This document shows positions 1,691 to 55,882 of a DNA stretch of 55,882 nucleotides, in pieces; position 1 is the first letter of the stretch; each line of letters begins with the position of its first letter. Made by a program: the position numbers and the translations under genes. The notes beneath the pieces are model-generated. The model saw only the letters and a list, made by a program, of their open reading frames with translations. It was not told the DNA's origin and did no database searches. Location of the stretch: contig JAQBTG010000024.1 in assembly GCA_027624955.1 (NCBI GenBank), positions 1-55,882 of the forward strand, read 5' to 3'. This stretch comes from Pseudomonadota bacterium. GTDB taxonomy: Bacteria > Pseudomonadota > Alphaproteobacteria > UBA828.

Positions 1691-2842
1691 TCATTCGCGC
1701 AGGCCGGCTTCACGCATCAACGGCAGCACGCGGTCGCCAAAATATTTGAGCTCTTCATGATAATCGAGCCAGGAAATCGCCAATCCTTCAACACCGAGAT
1801 CGGAGAGATTAATCATCTTATCGACGATTTGTTCCGGCGTTCCGACCAACGGCAGGCCGCCCCAACCCGCAATGAAACGTTCGCCCATGGCACGGATTTC
1901 GTCCTTGTTGGAACCGTAGGAATAATTCTCACCGAGCATCAGATCGATTATCGTATTGGTCGCGCCCCAATCGCCTTCATCGATAATTCGTTGGTAGAGA
2001 GCTTGAGCTTCTGCCTCCGTGTCGCGGCAACAAACCAGTGCGTAACTCATCGCCCGGCAGTGCCGTCCATGTTCCACCGCTTTCGAGCGGATCTGCGCAA
2101 TTACGTCCGCCGCCTTGTCGACCGAAGTGATCGAGAGCAAATTGTAATCGGCGTGGCGTGCCGAAAATTTGATCCCCGCCGGCGACGACCCAGCATTGAT
2201 AACTACCGGATGGGGCTGCTGGACCGGTTTCGGCGAAAGAAAGCCCTGATCGATCTTATAGAACTGGCCTTCATGGTCGAAGTCCTGTTCGGTCCACAAC
2301 CGTTTGACGCAGGACATCCATTCATCGGCCATCTCATAGCGTTCGTCATGTGGCAGCTGTTTGACGCCGAACATTTCCATTTCCGGCTTGAACCAACCGC
2401 ACACCACATTGATGCCAAATCTTCCGTTAGAAATATTGTCGATTGTGGCCGATTGTTTCGCTGCAAGAATGGGATGAACCGTGGGCACATGGGAGGTTGC
2501 AAATACCATAATGTCTTTGGTGTGACAGGCGATCGCCGCCGCCCAAGTATAAACCTCCAAATTGGTGCCGTTGAATTGCGTCGTGCCGCCAAAGTGGCGC
2601 CAGCGACCAACCGGGAGCAAAAGTTCAAAGCCAAGCTTATCCGCGAGTTGGGCAATCTTCACATTGTGTTCAAAAGTTGGCTCAAATGTTGTTTCGGCAT
2701 GGCTAATCGTGCATCCATGCGAGCAGTTGAGGCCGAACACACCGAGCTTAAATCGGTTCTTGTTGAACATTGGCACGTTGCGTTCGCGCCACTCGGCGGT
2801 GTCATCGGGGTGCGAAGTTTGCGCGTCAACAGATGAAGTCAT
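1691..2842 (-). CDS. Luciferase-like (LLM class) FMN-dependent monooxygenase, RutA/SfnG-like
   Basis: A 383-residue TIM-barrel flavin monooxygenase. The segments GGTTQFNGTNLE (about 85-96) and SATIDNISNGRFGINVVCGW (about 131-150) match the pattern of RutA (pyrimidine oxygenase) and dimethylsulfone monooxygenase SfnG, which use reduced FMN supplied by a separate reductase and O2 to cleave C-N or C-S bonds. The actual substrate cannot be read from the sequence, and no flavin reductase, rut or sfn neighbour is present. The start is well supported: AGAAGG lies 7 bases before the ATG. It follows the molybdopterin hydroxylase gene by 12 bases on the same strand, so the two are probably co-transcribed and may act on one substrate; that is inference. 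Confidence 0.88.
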   Translation of the reverse strand: MTSSVDAQTSHPDDTAEWRERNVPMFNKNRFKLGVFGLNCSHGCTISHAETTFEPTFEHNVKIAQLADKLGFELLLPVGRWRHFGGTTQFNGTNLEVYTWAAAIACHTKDIMVFATSHVPTVHPILAAKQSATIDNISNGRFGINVVCGWFKPEMEMFGVKQLPHDERYEMADEWMSCVKRLWTEQDFDHEGQFYKIDQGFLSPKPVQQPHPVVINAGSSPAGIKFSARHADYNLLSITSVDKAADVIAQIRSKAVEHGRHCRAMSYALVCCRDTEAEAQALYQRIIDEGDWGATNTIIDLMLGENYSYGSNKDEIRAMGERFIAGWGGLPLVGTPEQIVDKMINLSDLGVEGLAISWLDYHEELKYFGDRVLPLMREAGLRE

Positions 2843-2854
2843 GGTGCCGCCTTC

Positions 2855-5263
2855 TCATTGTTCCTGTGAATCGCAGTTCCTGTGAATCGCCCGCCAAACT
2901 CTTTCCGGTGTGGCCGGCATATCAAAATGCGAAACGCCGACTTTGTATAGCGCATCGAAGACGGCATTCGACATAGCAGCCATGCTCCCAACCGTGCCGG
3001 CTTCGCCGGCGCCTTTGATACCGAAAGGCGTATTTTCGCTGGGCACTTCATGTGACTGCAAAGCAATCATCGGCAGGTCGTCGGCGCGCGGCAGGCAGTA
3101 ATCCATAAAGGACCCAGATATCAATTGGCCGCTAGAGGGATCAAACGCGATGGCCTCACACAGAACTTGCCCAACCCCTTGCGCAACGCCGCCATGTATT
3201 TGGCCTTCCAGCAACAGCGGATTCAACACCTTCCCCACGTCTTCAACCACGGCGTAACGCGTCAGCCGCACCTGTCCCGTCTCGCGTTCTATTTCGACCT
3301 CACAAATATGACAGGCATTGGGAAAGGTGCAGTTGTCGGGCGCTGCCATCACATGTGCCGTGAGCCCGGCGACCGCGTCCGCAGCGGCGTCAGAAGCTTT
3401 GAAAGCACGCGCTGCAACATCCTGCAGAGACACCCTGTAATCGGTTCCGCCGACCACGAAGTGTCCCTCCGAAAACCCGATGTCCGATTCCGAAACTTCT
3501 AGCATTTCAGCCGCCAAGGGCTTGGCGATCTCTATGATTTTCTCGGCCGCCTGTTTTAAGGCTGCGCCGCCGATGCCAATCGAGCGCGAGCCGAAGGTGC
3601 CAACGCCTTCTTTTACGATCGCCGTGTCACCGAACTGAATGTCGATTTGGCCGGGGGTTAAACCCAGGAAGCTGTGGGCCAATTGGCGAAAAGCAGTTTC
3701 GTGTCCTTGACCATGATTGTGCGTGCCGAGAAAAAGCGTCGCATGCCCCGTCGCATCGAAGCGCAGCTCCGCCGATTCTTTCAGAGGCGCATCTTGCGGA
3801 CCCCCGGCGATTTCAACTGCGTAGGCGACGCCCACGCCATGAATCCAGCCCCTGCTCGCAGCCTCCGCCGCGCGGTCCTCCCGGCCATTAAAATCGGCGA
3901 GATCGATCGCCATATCCATGGTTTTTTCGAATTCGCCGCTGTCGAGGCGAAATGCCAAGCCCGTTGCGAATGGCATGGCGGAAGGCGGAATCATATTCCG
4001 GCGGCGCAGAGCAATCGCGTCCATGCCGAGTTGGCGCGCGGCGCTATCGACAATACGCTCAATGCACAACGTGGCTTCGGGCCGTCCCGCGCCGCGATAG
4101 GGCGCAGTCGGTTGCGTAAGGCTGAATACCCCGCGCACTTCGACATCGAATGCGCCGATGTCATAGGGGCCGCTTAACCCGCCCAGGTTATTGACCGGTA
4201 TATGGAGGCCGAATGTATCGAGATAGGCACCTAGGTTGGCGATGGTGTGCACCTTGAGCGCCAAGAATTTACCGCTCGCGTCGAGAGCAAGGGATACCTG
4301 CGAGACAGTGTCGCGTGCATGGTGGTCGGCGAGGAAGGATTCTGAGCGTTCGGCCACCCACCTAACCGCCCGGCCTGTGCGCCGCGCCGCCCACAGGACA
4401 AGCGCCAATTCGCGTTGCATAGAAGCCTTGAGGCCGAACCCGCCGCCCATGTCAGGCGAGATGACACGCAGCGACGCAGGCTCTATGTGCAACACATTGT
4501 TGGCAATTTCATTGCGCAGCAGGTGGGGCGTCTGAACACCGGCATAGAGCGTGTAGCTGTTTTCGCCGGAATCAAAGACGCCGATCGCCGAGCGTGTCTC
4601 CATCGGACTCGCTACAACACGTGAGATGACATATTCCGCCGCGACGATATGGGCGGCATCGACGAACGCTGCTGCCGTTCGTTTGGCATCTCCAAGACGC
4701 TCGACAAAACAAATATTCGAAGGTTCCTCCGGCCATACCGCCGGCGCATCCGGCGCTGCGGCTGCGCGCGTATCCGTCACACAGGCTGTGGGTTCGATGC
4801 TCACGTCTATGAGTTCGAGAGCGGAATCGGCCTCGGCCTCACTTTCGGCCACGACCATTGCGATGATGTCACCGACATGACGGACTTCCTCTTTGGCCAG
4901 CAGCTCGTATGGCGGCACAAAATTAGGCGTGCCATCGGCTCGTTCGCGGCTGGTGAAAGGCGCGAAACAACCGAGGCCGTCTTTGGCCAAATCGTCGCCC
5001 GTGAGGACTGCAATAACGCCAGGCGCGACCAATGCCGCCGTGACGTTGAGCCGGTCGATTCGCCCAGCCGCGTGTTGCGAGCGCAGCATCCGCGCGTGGG
5101 CCGTGCGCGGCATTTGGATGTCAGAGGCATACCGGCCTTTTCCGGTTAAGAAGCGCCCGTCTTCAAATCGGCGAACGGGCTGTCCGAAACGGCAGTCGAC
5201 GGAATTATCCGGCGCGGCGGCTGCCGAAAAAAGGGCCGGAGGCTCTGCTGGGGAGTTTTGCAC
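2855..5263 (-). CDS. Xanthine dehydrogenase/CO-dehydrogenase family molybdopterin-binding large subunit
   Basis: An 802-residue molybdenum hydroxylase large subunit. The N-terminal a/b-hammerhead domain is followed by the two-part molybdopterin domain with GGGFG (273-277), PYRGAGR (388-394) and KGAGEAG, whose Glu near residue 754 is the expected catalytic base. The active-site loop is the GAGR type of 'form II' CoxL-like proteins, not the CSFR loop of true aerobic CO dehydrogenase, so CO oxidation is unlikely; hydroxylation of a heteroaromatic or aldehyde is more likely. No FAD (CoxM-like) or 2Fe-2S (CoxS-like) subunit is encoded nearby, although enzymes of this family need them, so partners must be elsewhere. 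Start is a GTG with no obvious ribosome site; a slightly different start is possible. Confidence 0.9.
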   Translation of the reverse strand: MQNSPAEPPALFSAAAAPDNSVDCRFGQPVRRFEDGRFLTGKGRYASDIQMPRTAHARMLRSQHAAGRIDRLNVTAALVAPGVIAVLTGDDLAKDGLGCFAPFTSRERADGTPNFVPPYELLAKEEVRHVGDIIAMVVAESEAEADSALELIDVSIEPTACVTDTRAAAAPDAPAVWPEEPSNICFVERLGDAKRTAAAFVDAAHIVAAEYVISRVVASPMETRSAIGVFDSGENSYTLYAGVQTPHLLRNEIANNVLHIEPASLRVISPDMGGGFGLKASMQRELALVLWAARRTGRAVRWVAERSESFLADHHARDTVSQVSLALDASGKFLALKVHTIANLGAYLDTFGLHIPVNNLGGLSGPYDIGAFDVEVRGVFSLTQPTAPYRGAGRPEATLCIERIVDSAARQLGMDAIALRRRNMIPPSAMPFATGLAFRLDSGEFEKTMDMAIDLADFNGREDRAAEAASRGWIHGVGVAYAVEIAGGPQDAPLKESAELRFDATGHATLFLGTHNHGQGHETAFRQLAHSFLGLTPGQIDIQFGDTAIVKEGVGTFGSRSIGIGGAALKQAAEKIIEIAKPLAAEMLEVSESDIGFSEGHFVVGGTDYRVSLQDVAARAFKASDAAADAVAGLTAHVMAAPDNCTFPNACHICEVEIERETGQVRLTRYAVVEDVGKVLNPLLLEGQIHGGVAQGVGQVLCEAIAFDPSSGQLISGSFMDYCLPRADDLPMIALQSHEVPSENTPFGIKGAGEAGTVGSMAAMSNAVFDALYKVGVSHFDMPATPERVWRAIHRNCDSQEQ

Positions 5264-5351
5264 CGGACCGCGGGCTGTTTGAAGTTATGCGCTGCGCGGA
5301 AAGAGAATAATCGGTCGGGACATATGCTTAAAACTGTTACAATTGAGACGG

Positions 5352-5425
5352 TGGAGGCCGGGGCCGGAATCGAACCGGCATAAAAGGATTTGCAGTCCTC
5401 CACATAGCCACTCTGCCACCCGGCC
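5352..5425 (-). tRNA. tRNA-Cys (anticodon GCA)
   Basis: On the minus strand GGCCGGG pairs perfectly with CCCGGCC, the anticodon loop reads CTGCAAA (anticodon GCA) between GGA/TCC stem bases, the T arm has TTCGATT, the discriminator is U as expected for tRNA-Cys, and CCA is encoded at 5352-5354. It lies between the divergently oriented molybdenum hydroxylase and isoaspartyl methyltransferase-like genes. The 228 bases to its right (5426-5653) contain no gene that I can support. Confidence 0.97.
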
Positions 5426-5653
5426 AATGACGCGGCGTTGGGCGTCTTGCGCCCCCGTGGGTGCCCATATACGGTATGGTGCGGGCGCTGGTCAACCGGG
5501 TGTGCCGCGACACACGGTGCGCGGTACTCACAGCTTTTCGCAGTTGCGTTGTCATTCGTAGCAGGGCGGATATAAGATGCGCCAGTTTTTTGATTCTGGA
5601 GATCGTCGCCAACCCGATGTTCGGTATGCGGTGGCAGTTACGGTATAGTTCTC

Positions 5654-6313
5654 ATGAGCGAATTCGCCGCCGTTCGGCACAATATGGTTGAATGCCAACT
5701 TCGCCCCAACAAGGTGACGAATTGGCGCCTCATTGACGCGATGGATGATGTACCGCGCGAGCGCTTTGTGCCCAAGCAACTTGCCGGCGTGGCCTATATC
5801 GACGAGGACCTGATGGTGGCGCCTGGGCGCTATTTGATGGAGCCGCGGGTGCTGGCGCGCCTTTTGCAGGCGGCGACCATCACCGAGCAGGACGTGGCTC
5901 TGGATGTCGGCTGCGGCACTGGCTATTCATCCGCCGTATTGGGCCGCTTGGCTGGCACCGTTGTTGGGCTTGAGCCGGATGACGCGCTGGCCGCGCAGGC
6001 GAGCCAAACTCTGAGCGCAGTCGGCGCTGACAATGTCATCGTTGTTACCGGCAGCGTTGCAGAGGGGTATTCGCGCCAAGGACCCTATGACGTTATTTTA
6101 CTAAACGGGAGCATTCCTTTCATGCCATCGTCGTTGATCGATCAGCTCGCCGAGGGCGGCCGCATCATAGCGGTGGTGCGCGGCGCCGGCGAGGTGGTCG
6201 GCCGAGCAACACTTTGGGTCAGGATTCGGGGCGAAATTTCGCATCGGGTGCTATTCGATGCCGCTGTCCCGCCGCTGCCCGGTATAGAAACGAAACCGGC
6301 GTTCGAGTTTTGA
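5654..6313 (+). CDS. Protein-L-isoaspartate O-methyltransferase family protein, atypical
   Basis: A 219-residue class I SAM-dependent methyltransferase of the PIMT family. The SAM-binding motif I is VGCGTGYSS (about 85-93) and the N-terminal helix region VPRERFVP is typical of the family. The substrate-side loop differs: where genuine Pcm has GQTISQP, this protein has GRYLMEP, so the conserved Ser/Thr-Gln of the isoaspartyl site is missing. A canonical Pcm is encoded at 31966-32616 in the same window, so this copy has probably diverged in role. A PIMT-family gene directly before tolC is a familiar arrangement in alphaproteobacteria. Its stop overlaps a possible TTG start of tolC, suggesting co-transcription. 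Confidence 0.85.
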   Translation: MSEFAAVRHNMVECQLRPNKVTNWRLIDAMDDVPRERFVPKQLAGVAYIDEDLMVAPGRYLMEPRVLARLLQAATITEQDVALDVGCGTGYSSAVLGRLAGTVVGLEPDDALAAQASQTLSAVGADNVIVVTGSVAEGYSRQGPYDVILLNGSIPFMPSSLIDQLAEGGRIIAVVRGAGEVVGRATLWVRIRGEISHRVLFDAAVPPLPGIETKPAFEF

Positions 6314-13028: not shown

Positions 13029-14582
13029 ATGGCACGCATCGCCGTTGGCGGGTTTCAGCACGAAACCAACACCTTCGCCCCGGTCCAGGCAGATTACAGC
13101 GCCTTTGCCGAGGCCGATGCCTGGCCGGCGCTCTCTCGGGGCGAGGGCCTGTTTGACGCCGTGGCAGGGATCAATCTTCCGATTGCCGGTTTTATTGCGG
13201 CGGCGCAAGATGCCGGCCACACGCTGTTGCCGCTTTCCTGGTGCTCCGCCTCTCCCTCAGCCCATGTTACTGAGGACGCGTTCGAGCGCATCTCCGCCAT
13301 GTTGTTGGAAGACATCGCCGCAGCAAAGCCGGATGCCATCTATCTCGACCTGCACGGCGCCATGGTGACGGAACATTTTGCCGACGGCGAGGCCGCCCTG
13401 CTAAACCGCATACGCGCCACAGTTGGCGCCGAGATGCCGATAGTGGTTAGCCTTGATCTGCACGCCAACATCAGTGTCGAGATGTGCGCCGCCGCGTCCG
13501 CACTGACGGCCTATCGCAGCTATCCTCATATAGATATGGATGTGACCGGCGCGCGCGCCGCAAAATTGATGGACCATATTTTGCGATCTGATGGTGCTAC
13601 AGCAAATCATTTCCGCCCCATCGATTTTTTAATTCCGATCAACGCGCAATGCACCATGGAGGAGCCCGCCGGCGGGCTCTACCGCCGCCTCGGTGAATTG
13701 GAGGCGGCGCCCGGCGTCTGGCAGTTGTCCTTCGCGATGGGATTTCCGCCCGCCGATATTTCCATATGCGGCCCCTCGGTTTATGGCTGTGGCTCGGATT
13801 TGGCGGCCGTGGCGCGCGCAGTAGATACCCTGGCTGATGAAATCGGTGCCTGCGAAGGCGAGTTTACCGAACAATTGTTCAGCCCTGACGAAGCGGTGCG
13901 CCTGGCCATGGCCAACAGCGACGCAGGCCCATTCGTCATCGCCGATACTCAGGATAATCCTGGCGCGGGCGGCAACTCCGACACAGTCGGCATGCTCGAG
14001 GCGCTGTTGCGCTGTGGTGCCAAAGGCGCGGTCTTGGCGATCCTCTACGACCCGGAAGTCGCTGAGGCGGCGCATCTCGCCGGAGAAGGCCACCGCTTCT
14101 CGATCGCGCTTGGGGCCAAATCCGGCCAGCCCGGCCAGCGTCCGTTCGAAGGAAAGTTTCACGTCGAGCGGCTTGGCGACGGCCGATTTACCGCGACCGG
14201 CCCAATGTGGCGCGGGGCGCGTATGGAATTAGGCAAAATGGCGCTGCTAAAAGTCGCCGACAAATCCGCCGATGTTCGGGTCATTGTCTCCAGCCGAAAA
14301 TTTCAGGCGGCTGACCAATCGATCTTCCGCCATCTTGGCCTGGAGCCTATCGAGCAAAAAATACTGGTGCTCAAAAGCTCGGTACATTTCCGCGCCGACT
14401 TCCAGCCCATCGCGGCGCAGATCATCACCGCCATCGCACCTGGCCCCAATCTTGCCGATACGCGCAAATTTCCCTACAAAAACTTGCGCCCAGGTCTACG
14501 CATCCAGCCCAACGGGCCGCGCGTGCTTGGCCCAGAGACCCACGCGAGCGGAGGATATTGCTCCTACGGTGAGACAGAGTAA
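13029..14582 (+). CDS. M81 family metallopeptidase (MlrC-like)
   Basis: A 517-residue protein of the M81 / microcystinase C family. It begins ARIAVGGFQHETNTFAP, carries DLHGAMV and DLHANIS in the N-terminal DUF1485 domain, and DTQDNPGAGGNSDT at the start of the C-terminal MlrC domain; the His/Asp residues of these motifs are the expected zinc ligands. The founding member, MlrC of Sphingomonas, degrades linearised microcystin, but most relatives have unknown peptide-like or amide substrates and this name should not be taken as a function. The VOC gene follows 41 bases later and probably shares its transcript. Confidence 0.88.
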   Translation: MARIAVGGFQHETNTFAPVQADYSAFAEADAWPALSRGEGLFDAVAGINLPIAGFIAAAQDAGHTLLPLSWCSASPSAHVTEDAFERISAMLLEDIAAAKPDAIYLDLHGAMVTEHFADGEAALLNRIRATVGAEMPIVVSLDLHANISVEMCAAASALTAYRSYPHIDMDVTGARAAKLMDHILRSDGATANHFRPIDFLIPINAQCTMEEPAGGLYRRLGELEAAPGVWQLSFAMGFPPADISICGPSVYGCGSDLAAVARAVDTLADEIGACEGEFTEQLFSPDEAVRLAMANSDAGPFVIADTQDNPGAGGNSDTVGMLEALLRCGAKGAVLAILYDPEVAEAAHLAGEGHRFSIALGAKSGQPGQRPFEGKFHVERLGDGRFTATGPMWRGARMELGKMALLKVADKSADVRVIVSSRKFQAADQSIFRHLGLEPIEQKILVLKSSVHFRADFQPIAAQIITAIAPGPNLADTRKFPYKNLRPGLRIQPNGPRVLGPETHASGGYCSYGETE

Positions 14583-51632: not shown

Positions 51633-52724
51633 ATGCAGGTCGATTTATTCGATTTTCAATTGCCGCCGGAGTGCATCGCCGCGCGTCCGGCCTCGCCGCG
51701 CGATTCCGCACGGCTTCTCCATGTTGGTCAAAGTGTCGGCCAAAGCGCCCTGGGCGACCATACCGTGCGCGATCTGCCTGCGCTGCTCTCGCCCGGCGAT
51801 GTGCTGGTTCTGAATGATACCCGCGTGCTGCCAGCGCGATTGACCGGCATGCGCGGCGAAGCGCACATCGAAGTAACACTTCACCACATGGTGGAAGACG
51901 GCGTTTGGGACGCCTTCGCGCGCCCGGCCAAGCGCCTCAAGGCCGGCCATGAAATTATCTTTGCGGATGGTTTCTCGGCCGATGTTCTGTCCCGCGAGGG
52001 CGCGGAGGTGCGCCTCAAATTCGGGCTGCGCGGCACGCCGCTGCGTACCGCGCTCGAGCGTCAGGGCGTGCCGCCGCTGCCGCCATACATCCCCCGTTCG
52101 GATGGCGCGGACGCACGCGACAAGGCTGATTATCAAACAATTTATGCCGCCAAGGATGGCGCCGTTGCGGCGCCTACCGCGGGCCTCCATATGACGCCGG
52201 AGCTATTCGCCGCGCTGGATGCGCGCGGCGTGACCTGCGAATTCATTACGCTTCATGTTGGCGCCGGGACGTTTTTACCGGTACGCACGGAGGATACATC
52301 GGATCATGTCATGCATAGTGAATGGGGCACCCTTAGCGCCACGACCGCGGAGCGCATCAATGCTGCGCGTGAGAATGGCGGGCGCGTCGTAGCCCTCGGC
52401 AGCACCAGCCTGCGCGTCCTCGAACACGCGGCTGATGCTGAGGGGCGCTTGACGCCTTTTTCAGGCGAAATAGACCTCTTTATCGAGCCGGGTTATCGCT
52501 TCAAGATCGTCGATCTCCTAATGAGCAATTTTCATTTGCCGCGCTCCACCCTGTTCATGCTGGTCTCCGCCTTCGCCGGCATGACCTGCATGCGGCAAGC
52601 CTATGCGCACGCTATCGCATCGGGCTATCGCTTCTATTCTTATGGCGATGCCAGCCTTCTCGCCCCCGCAGATACAGCCGAAGTTGCGGCAGAAGCGGCG
52701 GCAATTGCTAGGGCTGGCACATGA
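51633..52724 (+). CDS. queA: S-adenosylmethionine:tRNA ribosyltransferase-isomerase QueA
   Basis: A 363-residue QueA that adds the epoxycyclopentanediol ring of queuosine precursor to tRNA. It begins [19 protein letters not shown], then [15 protein letters not shown] (about 56-70), [10 protein letters not shown] (about 181-190) and the C-terminal [18 protein letters not shown] (about 299-316), all standard. It overlaps tgt by four bases; the two enzymes act in the same pathway. The length is normal. Confidence 0.97.
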
Positions 52725-53848
52725 GCACCATCCCGTTCGTCATATCGGCCCGGGACGGTGCGGCGCGGACCGGGCAATTGGAACTCGCCCATGGCGTGGT
52801 GCGGACACCGGCCTTTATGCCGGTCGGCACCGCCGCAACGGTAAAGGGCATGCTGCCCGAGGCGGTCGCCGCCTTAGGCGCGGATATCCTTCTCGGCAAT
52901 GTTTATCATCTTATGCTCCGCCCCGGTGCCGCGCGGATTGCCGAGCTCGGGGGCCTGCACAAGTTCATGAATTGGCCGGGGCCGATTCTCACCGATTCCG
53001 GCGGCTTTCAAATTATGTCGCTCTCGAAGATCCGCAATCTCGACGAAAATGGCGTCGAGTTTCGCGCCCATACTGACGGTTCGCGCCATCGCCTGACGCC
53101 TGCCGCGTCAATCGATATCCAGCGTCAATTGGGCAGCGACATCACCATGGTCCTCGATGAATGCACACCCTATCCGGTGAGTGAGGAGGACGCAGCAAGC
53201 TCGATGCGCCGCTCTATGCGCTGGGCCGCGCTCTGCCGCGAGCGCTTTGAGGAACGTCCGGGCCACGCGTTGTTCGGTATCGTTCAGGGCGGCGTATTTG
53301 CTGACCTCCGCGCCGAGTGCGCAGCGTCGCTGCGCGGAATCGGCTTCGATGGCTACGCCATCGGCGGCTTGGCGGTGGGCGAGGGCCAGGAACAAATGCT
53401 AACGGTGCTCGATGGTCTTGTAGGCGCGCTCCCGGAAGATCGTCCGCGCTATCTGATGGGTGTGGGCACGCCCAGCGATATGGTGAAATCGGTGCTCCGC
53501 GGCGTTGATATGTTTGATTGCGTCCTGCCAACCCGATCCGGGCGCACCGGGCGCGGCTATACCGCGCGTGCCACGATCAATCTGCGCAATGCCCGGCACG
53601 CCGCCGATCCGCGTCCGGTGGATGAGGAGTGCACTTGTCAGACCTGCGCCGGCTATTCCCGCGCCTATATCCACCATCTATTCCGCTGCCAGGAAATGCT
53701 CGGCCCAATTCTGCTGACGCTGCACAATCTCTACTTCTATCAATCCTTGATGCAGGGCATGCGCCAGGCCATTGCCTCTGGCACGATGTGCGAATTTGCC
53801 GAACAATTCCTGGCGCATGCGGAGGTGGGTGATATTGAACCGCTATAG
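52721..53848 (+). CDS. tgt: tRNA-guanine transglycosylase
   Basis: A 375-residue Tgt that swaps guanine 34 for preQ1 in GU(N) anticodons. The catalytic Asp is in [11 protein letters not shown] (about 88-98) and the second in [10 protein letters not shown] (about 264-273). The zinc site CTCQTC with a later His near HNLYFYQ is complete. It begins with ATGA overlap to queA. The sequence downstream (53849-53943) leads to tRNA-Lys without a further gene. Confidence 0.97.
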
Positions 53849-53943: not shown

Positions 53944-54019
53944 GGGCGCGTAGCTCAGTTGGCAGAGCATCTGACTTTTAATCAGAGGGTCACAGGTTCG
54001 AATCCTGTCGCGCCTACCA
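53944..54019 (+). tRNA. tRNA-Lys (anticodon TTT)
   Basis: A complete cloverleaf with acceptor GGGCGCG/CGCGCCT (first pair G-U), D stem GCTC/GAGC, anticodon loop CTTTTAA (anticodon TTT), T arm ACAGG-TTCGAAT-CCTGT, discriminator A and encoded CCA. The composition of the DNA changes immediately after its 3' end, marking it as a likely attachment site of an integrated element. Confidence 0.97.
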
Positions 54020-54033
54020 ATTATTTCAATAAG

Positions 54034-54098
54034 TTAGGCGGACTTTTGTAAAGCACGAATATTTTTAAAAAGCTAATAGGCGACAATTTAGGCGACAA
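54034..54098 (+). repeat. Short direct repeats TAGGCGACAA next to tRNA-Lys
   Basis: TAGGCGACAA occurs at 54077-54086 and again at 54089-54098 (12-base period), and a variant TTAGGCGGAC lies at 54034-54043, 15 bases past the tRNA. Repeats of this kind beside a tRNA can be integrase arm or core sites. No integrase gene is in the window, so this is only suggestive. Confidence 0.55.
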
Positions 54099-54144
54099 AA
54101 TGGTATTTCGCTTTTGAGTGCATCTAGACCTGGTCGTGAACATC

Positions 54145-54161
54145 CGAACCTGTGACCTCTG
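54145..54161 (-). repeat. Inverted fragment resembling tRNA-Lys T-arm region
   Basis: CGAACCTGTGACCTCTG matches the reverse complement of tRNA-Lys positions 53983-54000 except for one missing base. T-arm sequences are similar among tRNAs, so it could come from another tRNA or be chance. Within an island edge it may be a relic of an earlier integration. Confidence 0.4.
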
Positions 54162-54299
54162 CCTTCGGAGTGTATCGAAGACGCTATTTTATCATTTACT
54201 ATCAGTATGTTGCACTACTATAGAGGCAAAATAGTATAGCAGTAGTATACCAGTGTTGGCTGCGAAACGTGTCAACACGATTTAGCCCACAGCCCTCAT

Positions 54300-54725
54300 T
54301 TAACGCCCTTTTCGCACCTTTCTGCCAAACGCTGCAAGTGCCTCAATCTGCGTATCCAACTCACCCTCTAATACTGCTTGTTTGAGTGAGGAGAGGGTAG
54401 GGGCAACGTCTGCCTCTGACTTGAGCGCGATAGCGGATTTTCCTTTTACAAACTCAATCGGCTTGCTGCCATACCGCAGCGTCAACAACACCCCACCGTC
54501 GCTTGAATGTGTCCACCACCGTTTTACACGCTTCGGTGCTGCAACTCTGCTTTCTACGCCGTCGGCACCTTTTACCCACTTTTGTTTGGTTGGCACGTAG
54601 TCTGCGTCTGCCGCAATCCGTTCTTGCTCTTCAATCTTTACAGCAAGTTTGCGACGACGATTGAGTGTTGGGTTGCTTGAAGTAGCCTTGTATTCAACGA
54701 ATGTGAGGGAAGATAACAATGTCAT
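54300..54725 (-). CDS. DUF6641-like protein of unknown function
   Basis: A 141-residue soluble, basic protein. Recognisable features are RRRKLAVKIEEQERIA (about 23-38), RVKRWWTHSSDGGVLLTLRYG (the core RWWTHSSDGGVLLTLRYG at about 68-85), GKSAIAL, and the C-terminal LKQAVLEGELDTQIEALA. From memory this pattern matches the DUF6641 family, common in accessory and phage-linked DNA, but I could not check this. No catalytic residues can be proposed. It lies on the minus strand next to the tRNA-Lys island edge and its composition is lower in GC than chromosomal genes here. Confidence 0.75.
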   Translation of the reverse strand: MTLLSSLTFVEYKATSSNPTLNRRRKLAVKIEEQERIAADADYVPTKQKWVKGADGVESRVAAPKRVKRWWTHSSDGGVLLTLRYGSKPIEFVKGKSAIALKSEADVAPTLSSLKQAVLEGELDTQIEALAAFGRKVRKGR

Positions 54726-55040
54726 AGCAGCCTCCTTGTTTGTGTCTGCACACGCATAGTGCGTTCAGATTACAAAGGCTGTCTTCTATTACATTTGAAT
54801 CGCTGTTCTGTTGCAGAAATGCAAAAAACCAGTCCTTACTACGCTTACGTTGTCTGCTCCCAAAGTATGCTTAAGCCAACTTATCTATCTGTTTTACAAA
54901 GATAAAAATCCATCTGAAATACTCTGTTATATTTTTAGAACAGTCACTGCTTGACACCCCCCACCCCCCTCGTATCTAATATCAAGAGGATATTTATATC
55001 TCTGCTTTCTATCATCTTTCTGTACAGAGGAACATCAGCA
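54726..55040. other. Divergent control region between the DUF6641-like gene and lipoprotein gene
   Basis: About 315 AT-rich bases with no supportable gene. The right end holds the promoter listed at 54951-54980. The left end must contain the promoter of the minus-strand gene, but I do not see a clear pair of boxes. Several short T and A runs are present without a hairpin. Confidence 0.5.
54951..54980 (+). promoter_or_regulatory. Sigma-70-type promoter of the lipoprotein gene
   Basis: A consensus -35 box TTGACA (54951-54956) is followed after 16-18 bases by TATCTA/TCTAAT (54973-54980). The spacer is an unusual C-rich run. It lies about 60 bases before the ATG at 55041. Confidence 0.7.
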
Positions 55041-55409
55041 ATGAAGAATACATACATTGCAGCATTTGCTGCGTCGGTAATAGTGTTAAGCGGCTGCAGT
55101 AGTGCTCAAAAAGCATCTGAAGTTCAATCTGTACGTATGCCTATCGCGCCATACTTAAAAATGTCTTGCAAGGAACTGGCATCAGAGCAATCGAATCTTG
55201 TCAGAGAAGCGCAAGCCGCTGGCGCAGAAGTTGATGCTGCTTACGATTCGGACAAAACTGCAGAATTAGTTGCTTGGATCTTATTTGCGCCAGCAGCATT
55301 GATGCTTGAAGGCAATCAAGCACAGGCCTCACGTCTCGCAAGCACGAAAGGTCAACTTGAAGCAGTACAAGAGGCACAGAAAGTCAATAAATGCACTGAC
55401 AATGGTTAA
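55041..55409 (+). CDS. Small lipoprotein, island-encoded
   Basis: A 122-residue predicted lipoprotein. The signal peptide ends in VLSGC with the lipidated Cys at 19. The mature part begins polar, has a Cys in MSCKELASEQ, then a probable coiled coil (about 50-70) and a hydrophobic patch ELVAWILFAPAALML (about 74-88), ending with a second Cys near the C terminus (VNKC). Proteins of this shape are common in phage and plasmid accessory DNA, but I do not know a function. The frame is open further upstream over the promoter; AGAGGA ten bases before ATG 55041 and the signal peptide fix the start. A terminator follows. Confidence 0.85.
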   Translation: MKNTYIAAFAASVIVLSGCSSAQKASEVQSVRMPIAPYLKMSCKELASEQSNLVREAQAAGAEVDAAYDSDKTAELVAWILFAPAALMLEGNQAQASRLASTKGQLEAVQEAQKVNKCTDNG

Positions 55410-55421
55410 CAAAAAATAGTA

Positions 55422-55449
55422 AAAAACCGCGCTTCGGCGCGGTTTTTTT
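55422..55449. terminator. Intrinsic terminator after the lipoprotein gene
   Basis: CCGCGC-TTCG-GCGCGG with six A before and seven T after: a 6-bp GC stem (8 or more with flanking A-T pairs) and a stable TTCG loop. The symmetry lets it act for both the lipoprotein gene and the minus-strand gene to its right. Confidence 0.93.
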
Positions 55450-55546
55450 ATGTCTAATATATTTGCAATGCGTATCGCATAGTCAGCCTATCTACCAGCA
55501 CACAACTTCTACGACACACCACAAACCGTGCTCATTTGATTCGTTT

Positions 55547-55876
55547 TCACACATTCTCTGTATCGCTATGTTGATTTGATAACGGCGGAATAGGCTTGAA
55601 TGGTTGCAGTTGAGAAGGTGTTGCTGGCTCTTCTGCTTGTTGCTGTTGCTCTGGATCTTTCTGCACAACTTTCTCTTTGGGTATGTAGGCTTTGACAACT
55701 TTGGTTTTTGTCTTTGTCTTTGGTGTTGTCAGTTTCTTCGCTAGTGCCACAACACTCTGACTTGTTCCTAACATCAACTGCAACGCTGCCATTTTTGTTT
55801 CAGCGTCTGCCTTGTCTGCTAATGCACGTATCGTGTTCAGTGCTTGCTGCACGTCTTTCAAAACTTCGTTATTCAT
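55547..55876 (-). CDS. Hypothetical protein, Lys/Gln/Pro-rich C terminus
   Basis: A 109-residue protein I do not recognise. The first half is predicted helical (KDVQQALNTIRALADKADAE and a TKMAALQLMLG helix), followed by a basic stretch with TPKTKTKTKVVK (about 51-62), and a Gln/Glu/Pro-rich, probably disordered tail with QQQQ. It starts six bases from the right edge, so upstream signals are only partly seen. Low-GC codon use fits the island rather than the chromosome. It could be a DNA-binding or phage-type accessory protein; this is not shown. Confidence 0.6.
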   Translation of the reverse strand: MNNEVLKDVQQALNTIRALADKADAETKMAALQLMLGTSQSVVALAKKLTTPKTKTKTKVVKAYIPKEKVVQKDPEQQQQAEEPATPSQLQPFKPIPPLSNQHSDTENV

Positions 55877-55882
55877 AAACGT

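Follow-up and report, generated by a model that had tools for sequence, protein, structure and literature searches.

A probable integrase-distal end of an integrative element with a tRNA-Arg(CCG) fragment as its putative core, in the flank of an alphaproteobacterial tRNA-Lys gene

The window analysed here, i.e., the whole of contig C24 with its 55,882 bases, belongs to a genome assembly (G000) of 3.58 Mb in 84 contigs with 2.35% contamination. Near its right end lies an intact tRNA-Lys(TTT), and the two genes upstream of this tRNA were identified by Pfam as tgt and as a gene for a Queuosine_synth protein.

52721..53848, + strand: tgt, the host gene preceding the tRNA (Pfam TGT, 4.4e-155)
53944..54019, + strand: tRNA-Lys(TTT), intact (ARAGORN)

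A first reading of this DNA, made without database searches (the sequence-only reading), had placed the left edge of an integrated element at the 3′ end of tRNA-Lys, behind 54 kb of housekeeping genes. The housekeeping character holds for the two genes named above, which are those that annotation covered. The transition to AT-richer DNA past the tRNA is borne out by the base composition: GC is 0.587-0.629 in the 1-kb bins from 51 to 54 kb (0.609 at 53-54 kb) and falls from ~0.61 to ~0.45 behind the tRNA, with the bin at 54-55 kb (0.446) being the minimum among the 55 1-kb bins listed.

In the relatives, tRNA-Lys(TTT) lies behind tgt in 8 of 20 loci (with a spacing of ~1.1 kb in G022), and in 4 of these 8 the contig stops 70-268 bp past the tRNA. 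When the 1939 bp from 53944 to 55882 were compared with 21 family genomes, the matches outside G000 finished by query position 106, apart from short tRNA-Arg pieces at query positions 199-227; the match to the sister genome G004 begins upstream of tRNA-Lys and breaks off ~20 bp past it. The ORFs of the window gave no tblastn match in the relatives' loci at hand, and a clean empty site was not found in relatives. Nor was continuous synteny past tRNA-Lys, the observation that the sequence-only reading had named as speaking against itself, found in any of the family relatives. These comparisons support the view that mobile DNA starts near the tRNA-Lys 3′ end.

As the sequence-only reading had also claimed, the genes past the tRNA are small and accessory-like; the 1.86 kb carry three small ORFs and a terminator-like hairpin, as listed below.

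54300..54725, − strand: DUF6641 protein of 141 aa, encoded by the final gene ahead of the distal end (Pfam PF20346, 1.3e-18; 52% identity to the copy of strain IMCC14465)
55041..55409, + strand: small putative lipoprotein, 122 aa, cargo (ORF; signal and LSGC lipobox seen by eye)
55421..55448, + strand: perfect 12-bp hairpin with a T run, terminator-like (inverted repeat)
55547..55876, − strand: ORF3 (109 aa), which serves as the marker of the element family (50% identical to its IMCC14465 counterpart across 103 residues; alignment of eight rows)

DUF6641 occurs sporadically, being above the cut-off in 3 of 385 genomes of the class. NCBIfam returned nothing above its cut-off for the ORFs of the window, PADLOC returned nothing for 7 proteins, and the lipoprotein ORF has no family above the cut-off. 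When an AlphaFold model of DUF6641 (pLDDT 84.9) was compared with the PDB and with viral models, no fold matched significantly (best E 0.21 and 0.025, respectively). Neither DUF6641 (tblastn) nor DUF6626, a further gene of the family described below, matched phage and plasmid records, and no match in viral contigs was obtained for DUF6641, ORF3 or the 411-aa recombinase of the relatives. A prophage check of the window yielded phrog_31551, of unknown function, as the sole phage-family match (for DUF6641).

Homologues of two of these genes lie together in IMCC14465 (G170; locus L129, also obtained as L117), in an AT-richer island beside guaA (Pfam) that also carries DUF6626 and two tyrosine recombinases of 189 and 411 aa. 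A scan of genome contigs with the ORF3 pair of the window and IMCC14465 as the query found 11 loci (L129 among them being IMCC14465 again), mostly in marine Alpha- and Gammaproteobacteria: IMCC14465, SAR116 (two), Pseudomonadales AF_MB504 (two places), Motilimonas, Ca. Enterovibrio luxaltus, Rhodobacteraceae XHP0102 and HTCC2150, Porticoccus and LSUCC0096. DUF6626 is present in 10 of these 11 loci and DUF6641, whole or partial, in 7, while the lipoprotein ORF was found in none of the 11. Both recombinases are present in six loci (in pieces in L131), in four of which guaA stands directly upstream of the 411-aa recombinase. In L130, a truncated Arm-DNA-bind_3 integrase lies behind guaA.

The large recombinase is 91-96% identical among L127, L128, L129 and L134 (SAR116, IMCC14465, HTCC2150), which suggests recent transfer between lineages. 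For ORF3, pS is 0.22-0.42 and pN 0.035-0.058 in six pairs among four relatives (the window copy lies outside these pairs), values indicative of purifying selection on ORF3 among the four. The small recombinase has relatives of only ~31% identity in 55 phage records, mostly of Caulobacter phages, and these matches are general recombinase similarity. In one Pseudomonadales contig (CALSNA010000001.1; loci L126 and L133), the ORF3/DUF6641 element occurs as a tandem array of several copies, some whole and some broken.

The relative L129 also shows where such an element ends. Its core at guaA, GAGTGGGAGTAG, recurs at position 14080, 213 bp behind DUF6641, thus marking DUF6641 as the gene at the integrase-distal end; it is the last gene before the distal core in L129, as in the window, where it ends at 54300 and points left, toward the tRNA. 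In L126, a core-like motif lies between one DUF6641 and the next recombinase. The DNA between DUF6641 and the tRNA-Lys flank in the window contains the following features.

54142..54170, − strand: tRNA-Arg(CCG) fragment from the anticodon arm to the T loop, 29 bp, proposed att core (97% to C22:5-33 of the same assembly, E 1.2e-5; at the position of the core in the guaA relatives)
54171..54210, − strand: end-of-element sequence resembling the stretch that precedes the distal core in the guaA elements (25/40 to L129, 24/40 to L126)
54232..54253, − strand: tandem repeat TAGTATA(G/C)CAG ×2, period 11, candidate arm-type sites of the distal end (copies at 54232 and 54243)

The tRNA-Arg fragment begins 123 bp past the end of tRNA-Lys and has the orientation of the core at the distal end; an inverted copy of tRNA T-arm sequence occupies 54142-54157. 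The 40-mer preceding the L129 core scored best, among 111,684 window positions, at 54171-54210, with 25 of 40 identities (22/40 at the runner-up position); the L126 sequence scores 24/40 there. Shifting the register by 1 to 3 bases leaves 11-16 identities, and 5000 shuffles reached a mean of 12.4 and a maximum of 22; the similarity around TACTGATA had been seen by eye before this register test was run. With 54171-54210 so aligned, the start of the guaA core in the relatives coincides exactly with the start of the tRNA-Arg fragment, the distal copy of that core having been found in one relative only, L129. The period-11 repeats agree in placement too: they precede the core by 77-80 bp in L129 and by 79-84 bp in the window. 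Over 60 bases, 29 are identical, the largest value of 5000 shuffles being 31. When the whole end was aligned locally with gaps, the result was not significant: of 1000 shuffles, 56 reached the score for L129 and 555 that for L126. Taken at the level of sequence, the core of the element thus probably lies on the tRNA-Arg(CCG) fragment, and the edge of the element off tRNA-Lys. A normal insertion into tRNA-Arg would leave a complete tRNA 3′ end. However, the fragment stops at the T loop, so this is not a plain insertion into tRNA-Arg, and one has to suppose a secondary site or some later rearrangement.

The tRNA-Lys flank itself carries a second set of features, and the short repeats that had been reported beside the tRNA are indeed present, on this side as well as at 54232/54243.

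54020..54037, + strand: post-CCA motif ATTATTTCAATAAGTTAG, probably the element-derived flank of a tRNA-Lys attachment site (likeness to other family tRNAs seen by eye; the G004 homology ends here)
54077..54098, + strand: tandem repeat TAGGCGACAA ×2, period 12, candidate integrase arm-type sites of the tRNA-Lys site (copies at 54077 and 54089)

A stretch similar to the post-CCA motif recurs, as judged by eye, behind several family tRNAs. Tandem repeats (at least 9 of 10 identical, period 10-13, within 130 bp; five short-flank rows dropped) stand behind 8 of 32 tRNAs, invariably between +43 and +64, and in front of none of the 32, in loci that were fetched by similarity to the window's own tRNA-Lys flank. 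At least two repeat sites in the 281 bp of 54020-54300 arose in 1 of 2000 dinucleotide shuffles (mean 0.0185), a criterion chosen after the repeats had already been seen, and 12 such sites occur in 34 kb of host DNA. As a control within the same genome, a tRNA-Ala(CGC) on contig C9 is followed by AAGTGTCACT ×2 with period 12 (beyond the 130 bp counted above) and then by an Arm-DNA-bind_3 integrase of P4 type. In G017, an integrase domain lies ~150 bp behind tRNA-Lys(TTT), in a flank that has no repeat at the count threshold. The 120-bp flank in the window resembles that of the second tRNA-Lys of its own genome, at a score reached by 0 of 300 shuffles. The comparisons of the flank with G011 (score reached by 10 of 300 shuffles) and G003 (58 of 300), of 54040-54141 with G004 (111 of 1000) and of the right side with G004 (41 of 200) are not significant. 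The stretch 54020-54098 thus looks like an attachment-site signature of the kind seen at other family tRNAs, and the flank of tRNA-Lys has the appearance of an attachment site of its own, either older or nested.

Three further observations come from tRNA loci of relatives. In L058 (G005; reverse strand, 1847-3421), the first gene behind tRNA-Lys is a 524-aa TnpB-like frame, as read by eye. In L068 (G022; reverse strand, ~2350-6000), ~4 kb with a GC of 47-50% vs. 60-66% and small accessory frames lie behind tRNA-Lys(TTT); this low-GC stretch is another occupant of the same tRNA-Lys site. In L083 (G003:C88), ARAGORN reports a 74-nt tRNA with anticodon TTA at 1376-1449, where relatives have tRNA-Lys(CTT); it is a decayed or altered tRNA beside an attachment-site signature.

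The second copy of the tRNA-Lys 3′ end predicted by the sequence-only reading (attR) is missing from the assembly: a 25-nt pattern (up to 3 mismatches) matched, besides itself, only two places inside other tRNA genes, and a 19-nt pattern (up to 2 mismatches) matched itself only, in an assembly that may lack the other end of the element, where such a copy would be sought. No integrase was found among the ORFs or by Pfam in 54020-55882, and the contig stops at 55882. Neither the recombinases of the ORF3/DUF6641 family nor DUF6626 (for which the search was positive in the control, IMCC14465) nor a second end of the element was found in the assembly, so the completeness and the mobility of the element are only putative. 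Thus, of the claim of an element integrated at tRNA-Lys, mobile DNA near the tRNA 3′ end is supported, whereas the anchoring at tRNA-Lys is not, given the missing end copy, the lack of an integrase on the 1.86 kb and the core on the tRNA-Arg fragment.

The better reading has two layers, i.e., the scar of a tRNA-Lys attachment site and, 123 bp further on, a distal end with a tRNA-Arg core. In our view, what lies between about 54142 and the end of the contig is likely the integrase-distal end of an integrative element that belongs, as a diverged member, to the small-island family described above. Fuller relatives have, in this order, the 411-aa tyrosine recombinase, an opposed small, catalytic-only tyrosine recombinase (189 aa), DUF6626, ORF3, a 60-aa protein, cargo, DUF6641 and the end. 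Such an element would leave the chromosome as a circle and enter a chromosomal site through tyrosine recombination with its own core, the recombinase being held by arm-type repeats that flank this core. The core in relatives is the guaA 3′ end (GAGTGGGAGTAG), and here it would be the part of tRNA-Arg(CCG) from the anticodon arm to the T loop. The end of the element would then sit in the 3′ flank of tRNA-Lys, which bears the putative scar or left arm of a different, tRNA-Lys-specific integration, and the recombinases and DUF6626 would be expected beyond 55882. The gene homology and gene order, the in-register end sequence, the repeats and the tRNA-Arg fragment are seen directly in the data; recombination at the fragment, the integrase responsible for it and the nesting of the two sites are what we infer here.

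Another account, in line with the sequence-only reading and in our view unlikely, is a single element at the tRNA-Lys 3′ end, with its left edge at the CCA end and an incidental tRNA-Arg fragment. It would explain why the G004 homology stops ~20 bp past the tRNA, and it gains from the placement of the post-CCA motif and tandem repeat, which is that seen behind other tRNAs (including the genome's own tRNA-Ala with its P4-type integrase), as well as from the integrase domain adjoining tRNA-Lys(TTT) in G017. However, the assembly has no further tRNA-Lys end copy, and the tRNA-Arg fragment is what the end sequence lines up with in register. In addition, DUF6641, which in L129 is the gene closest to the distal end, points toward the tRNA here; a single tRNA-Lys element would therefore have a polarity opposite to that of the guaA relatives. 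A decayed relic, in which the right part is a remnant left without recombinases after the loss of most of an island, is somewhat improbable in our estimate. In its favour, one recombinase or both are missing from 5 of the 11 ORF3 loci, meaning that relics are common, and the assembly has no recombinase partner. Against this, the DUF6641 and ORF3 frames are open in the window, and pN of ORF3 is low relative to pS between relatives, a comparison that is not a test of the window copy.

An assembly chimera, with two genomes joined at a conserved tRNA or at the 29-bp tRNA-Arg piece, appears very improbable. The 84 contigs and the contamination estimate, the commonness of tRNAs shared by different species and the early end of half of the eight contigs of relatives on which tRNA-Lys(TTT) follows tgt are all in keeping with a misjoin. 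However, the contig crosses the tRNA and the 120 bp of own-like flank before the foreign part begins, and that foreign part shows the end structure expected beside a core. Two other candidates were dropped. A single attP around the tRNA-Arg core, built from the P-side and the tRNA-Lys-side repeats, was rejected, as the repeats in the window differ whereas the two sides of L129 agree; a joining of contigs C24 and C22 by the element was rejected as unproven.

Genomic islands at guaA are already known, e.g., GIsul2 and ICERspD18B with the core GAGTGGGA (PMC9376610, PMC7775301). As far as the available parts of these papers describe them, they share with the relatives of the window element the site, the 8-bp core, a tyrosine integrase and direct repeats at both ends. 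In contrast, they mostly have P4-type integrases with AlpA, whereas the relatives here have two other tyrosine recombinases together with DUF6626, ORF3 and DUF6641. The element in the window also differs from these islands in not sitting at guaA; insertion at guaA in its own genome was rejected, since guaA (C4:45494-47032) is directly followed by host sequence, with a host reading frame. The attP of ICEMlSym R7A is a studied case of repeated arm-type motifs (PMC11963761). From the portion of that account at hand, such tRNA islands with a P4-type integrase resemble the window in having a tRNA-derived core and short repeated arm-type motifs nearby, whereas in the window no integrase is visible, the core is the middle of tRNA-Arg rather than the 3′ end, and the neighbouring tRNA is another one. 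Tycheposons are defined, in the sections of PMC10872708 available, by a border tRNA and xerD. The likeness to them consists in marine bacteria, a tRNA border, a tyrosine recombinase and cargo; the guaA relatives, in a comparison by description, have no tRNA border.

The literature searched contained no mention of DUF6641 or DUF6626 and none of the combination of Alphaproteobacteria, guaA, integrase and SAR116. Thus, the kind of the guaA island is known, and the gene set of ORF3, DUF6626 and DUF6641 together with a tRNA-Arg core looks new within that literature. A broader proposal, offered tentatively and with somewhat less than even confidence, is that small integrative elements with paired, opposed tyrosine recombinases form an undescribed family that spreads among marine Alpha- and Gammaproteobacteria, that its core has switched between the guaA 3′ end and tRNA-Arg(CCG) with the arm spacing and end sequence kept, and that the window represents the tRNA-type lineage. 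If this is true, ORF3, DUF6626 and DUF6641 would be marker genes of a widespread group of elements that appear in family libraries as unknown only, and the locus would be a natural example of a tyrosine-recombinase element that exchanged a protein gene for a tRNA gene as its target while the remainder of its attachment site was retained. It would also caution against taking the nearest tRNA as the insertion site, as the in-register sequence points to the fragment of another tRNA 123 bp on.

Two minor observations were made elsewhere in the same assembly. Contig C22 (1-65, L014) starts inside tRNA-Arg(CCG), and C25:53690-54700 (L015:13690-14700) carries a tRNA-Arg(CCG) 3′ end followed by a broken tyrosine-integrase-like frame (frames read by eye), probably another island at tRNA-Arg. 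The tRNA-Ala(CGC) region mentioned above (C9:96645-99425, L021:11646-14425), in which the tRNA, the tandem repeat and the P4-type integrase are followed, 2.7 kb on, by a candidate second tRNA end, GGCTCCACCA, is a possible mini-island.
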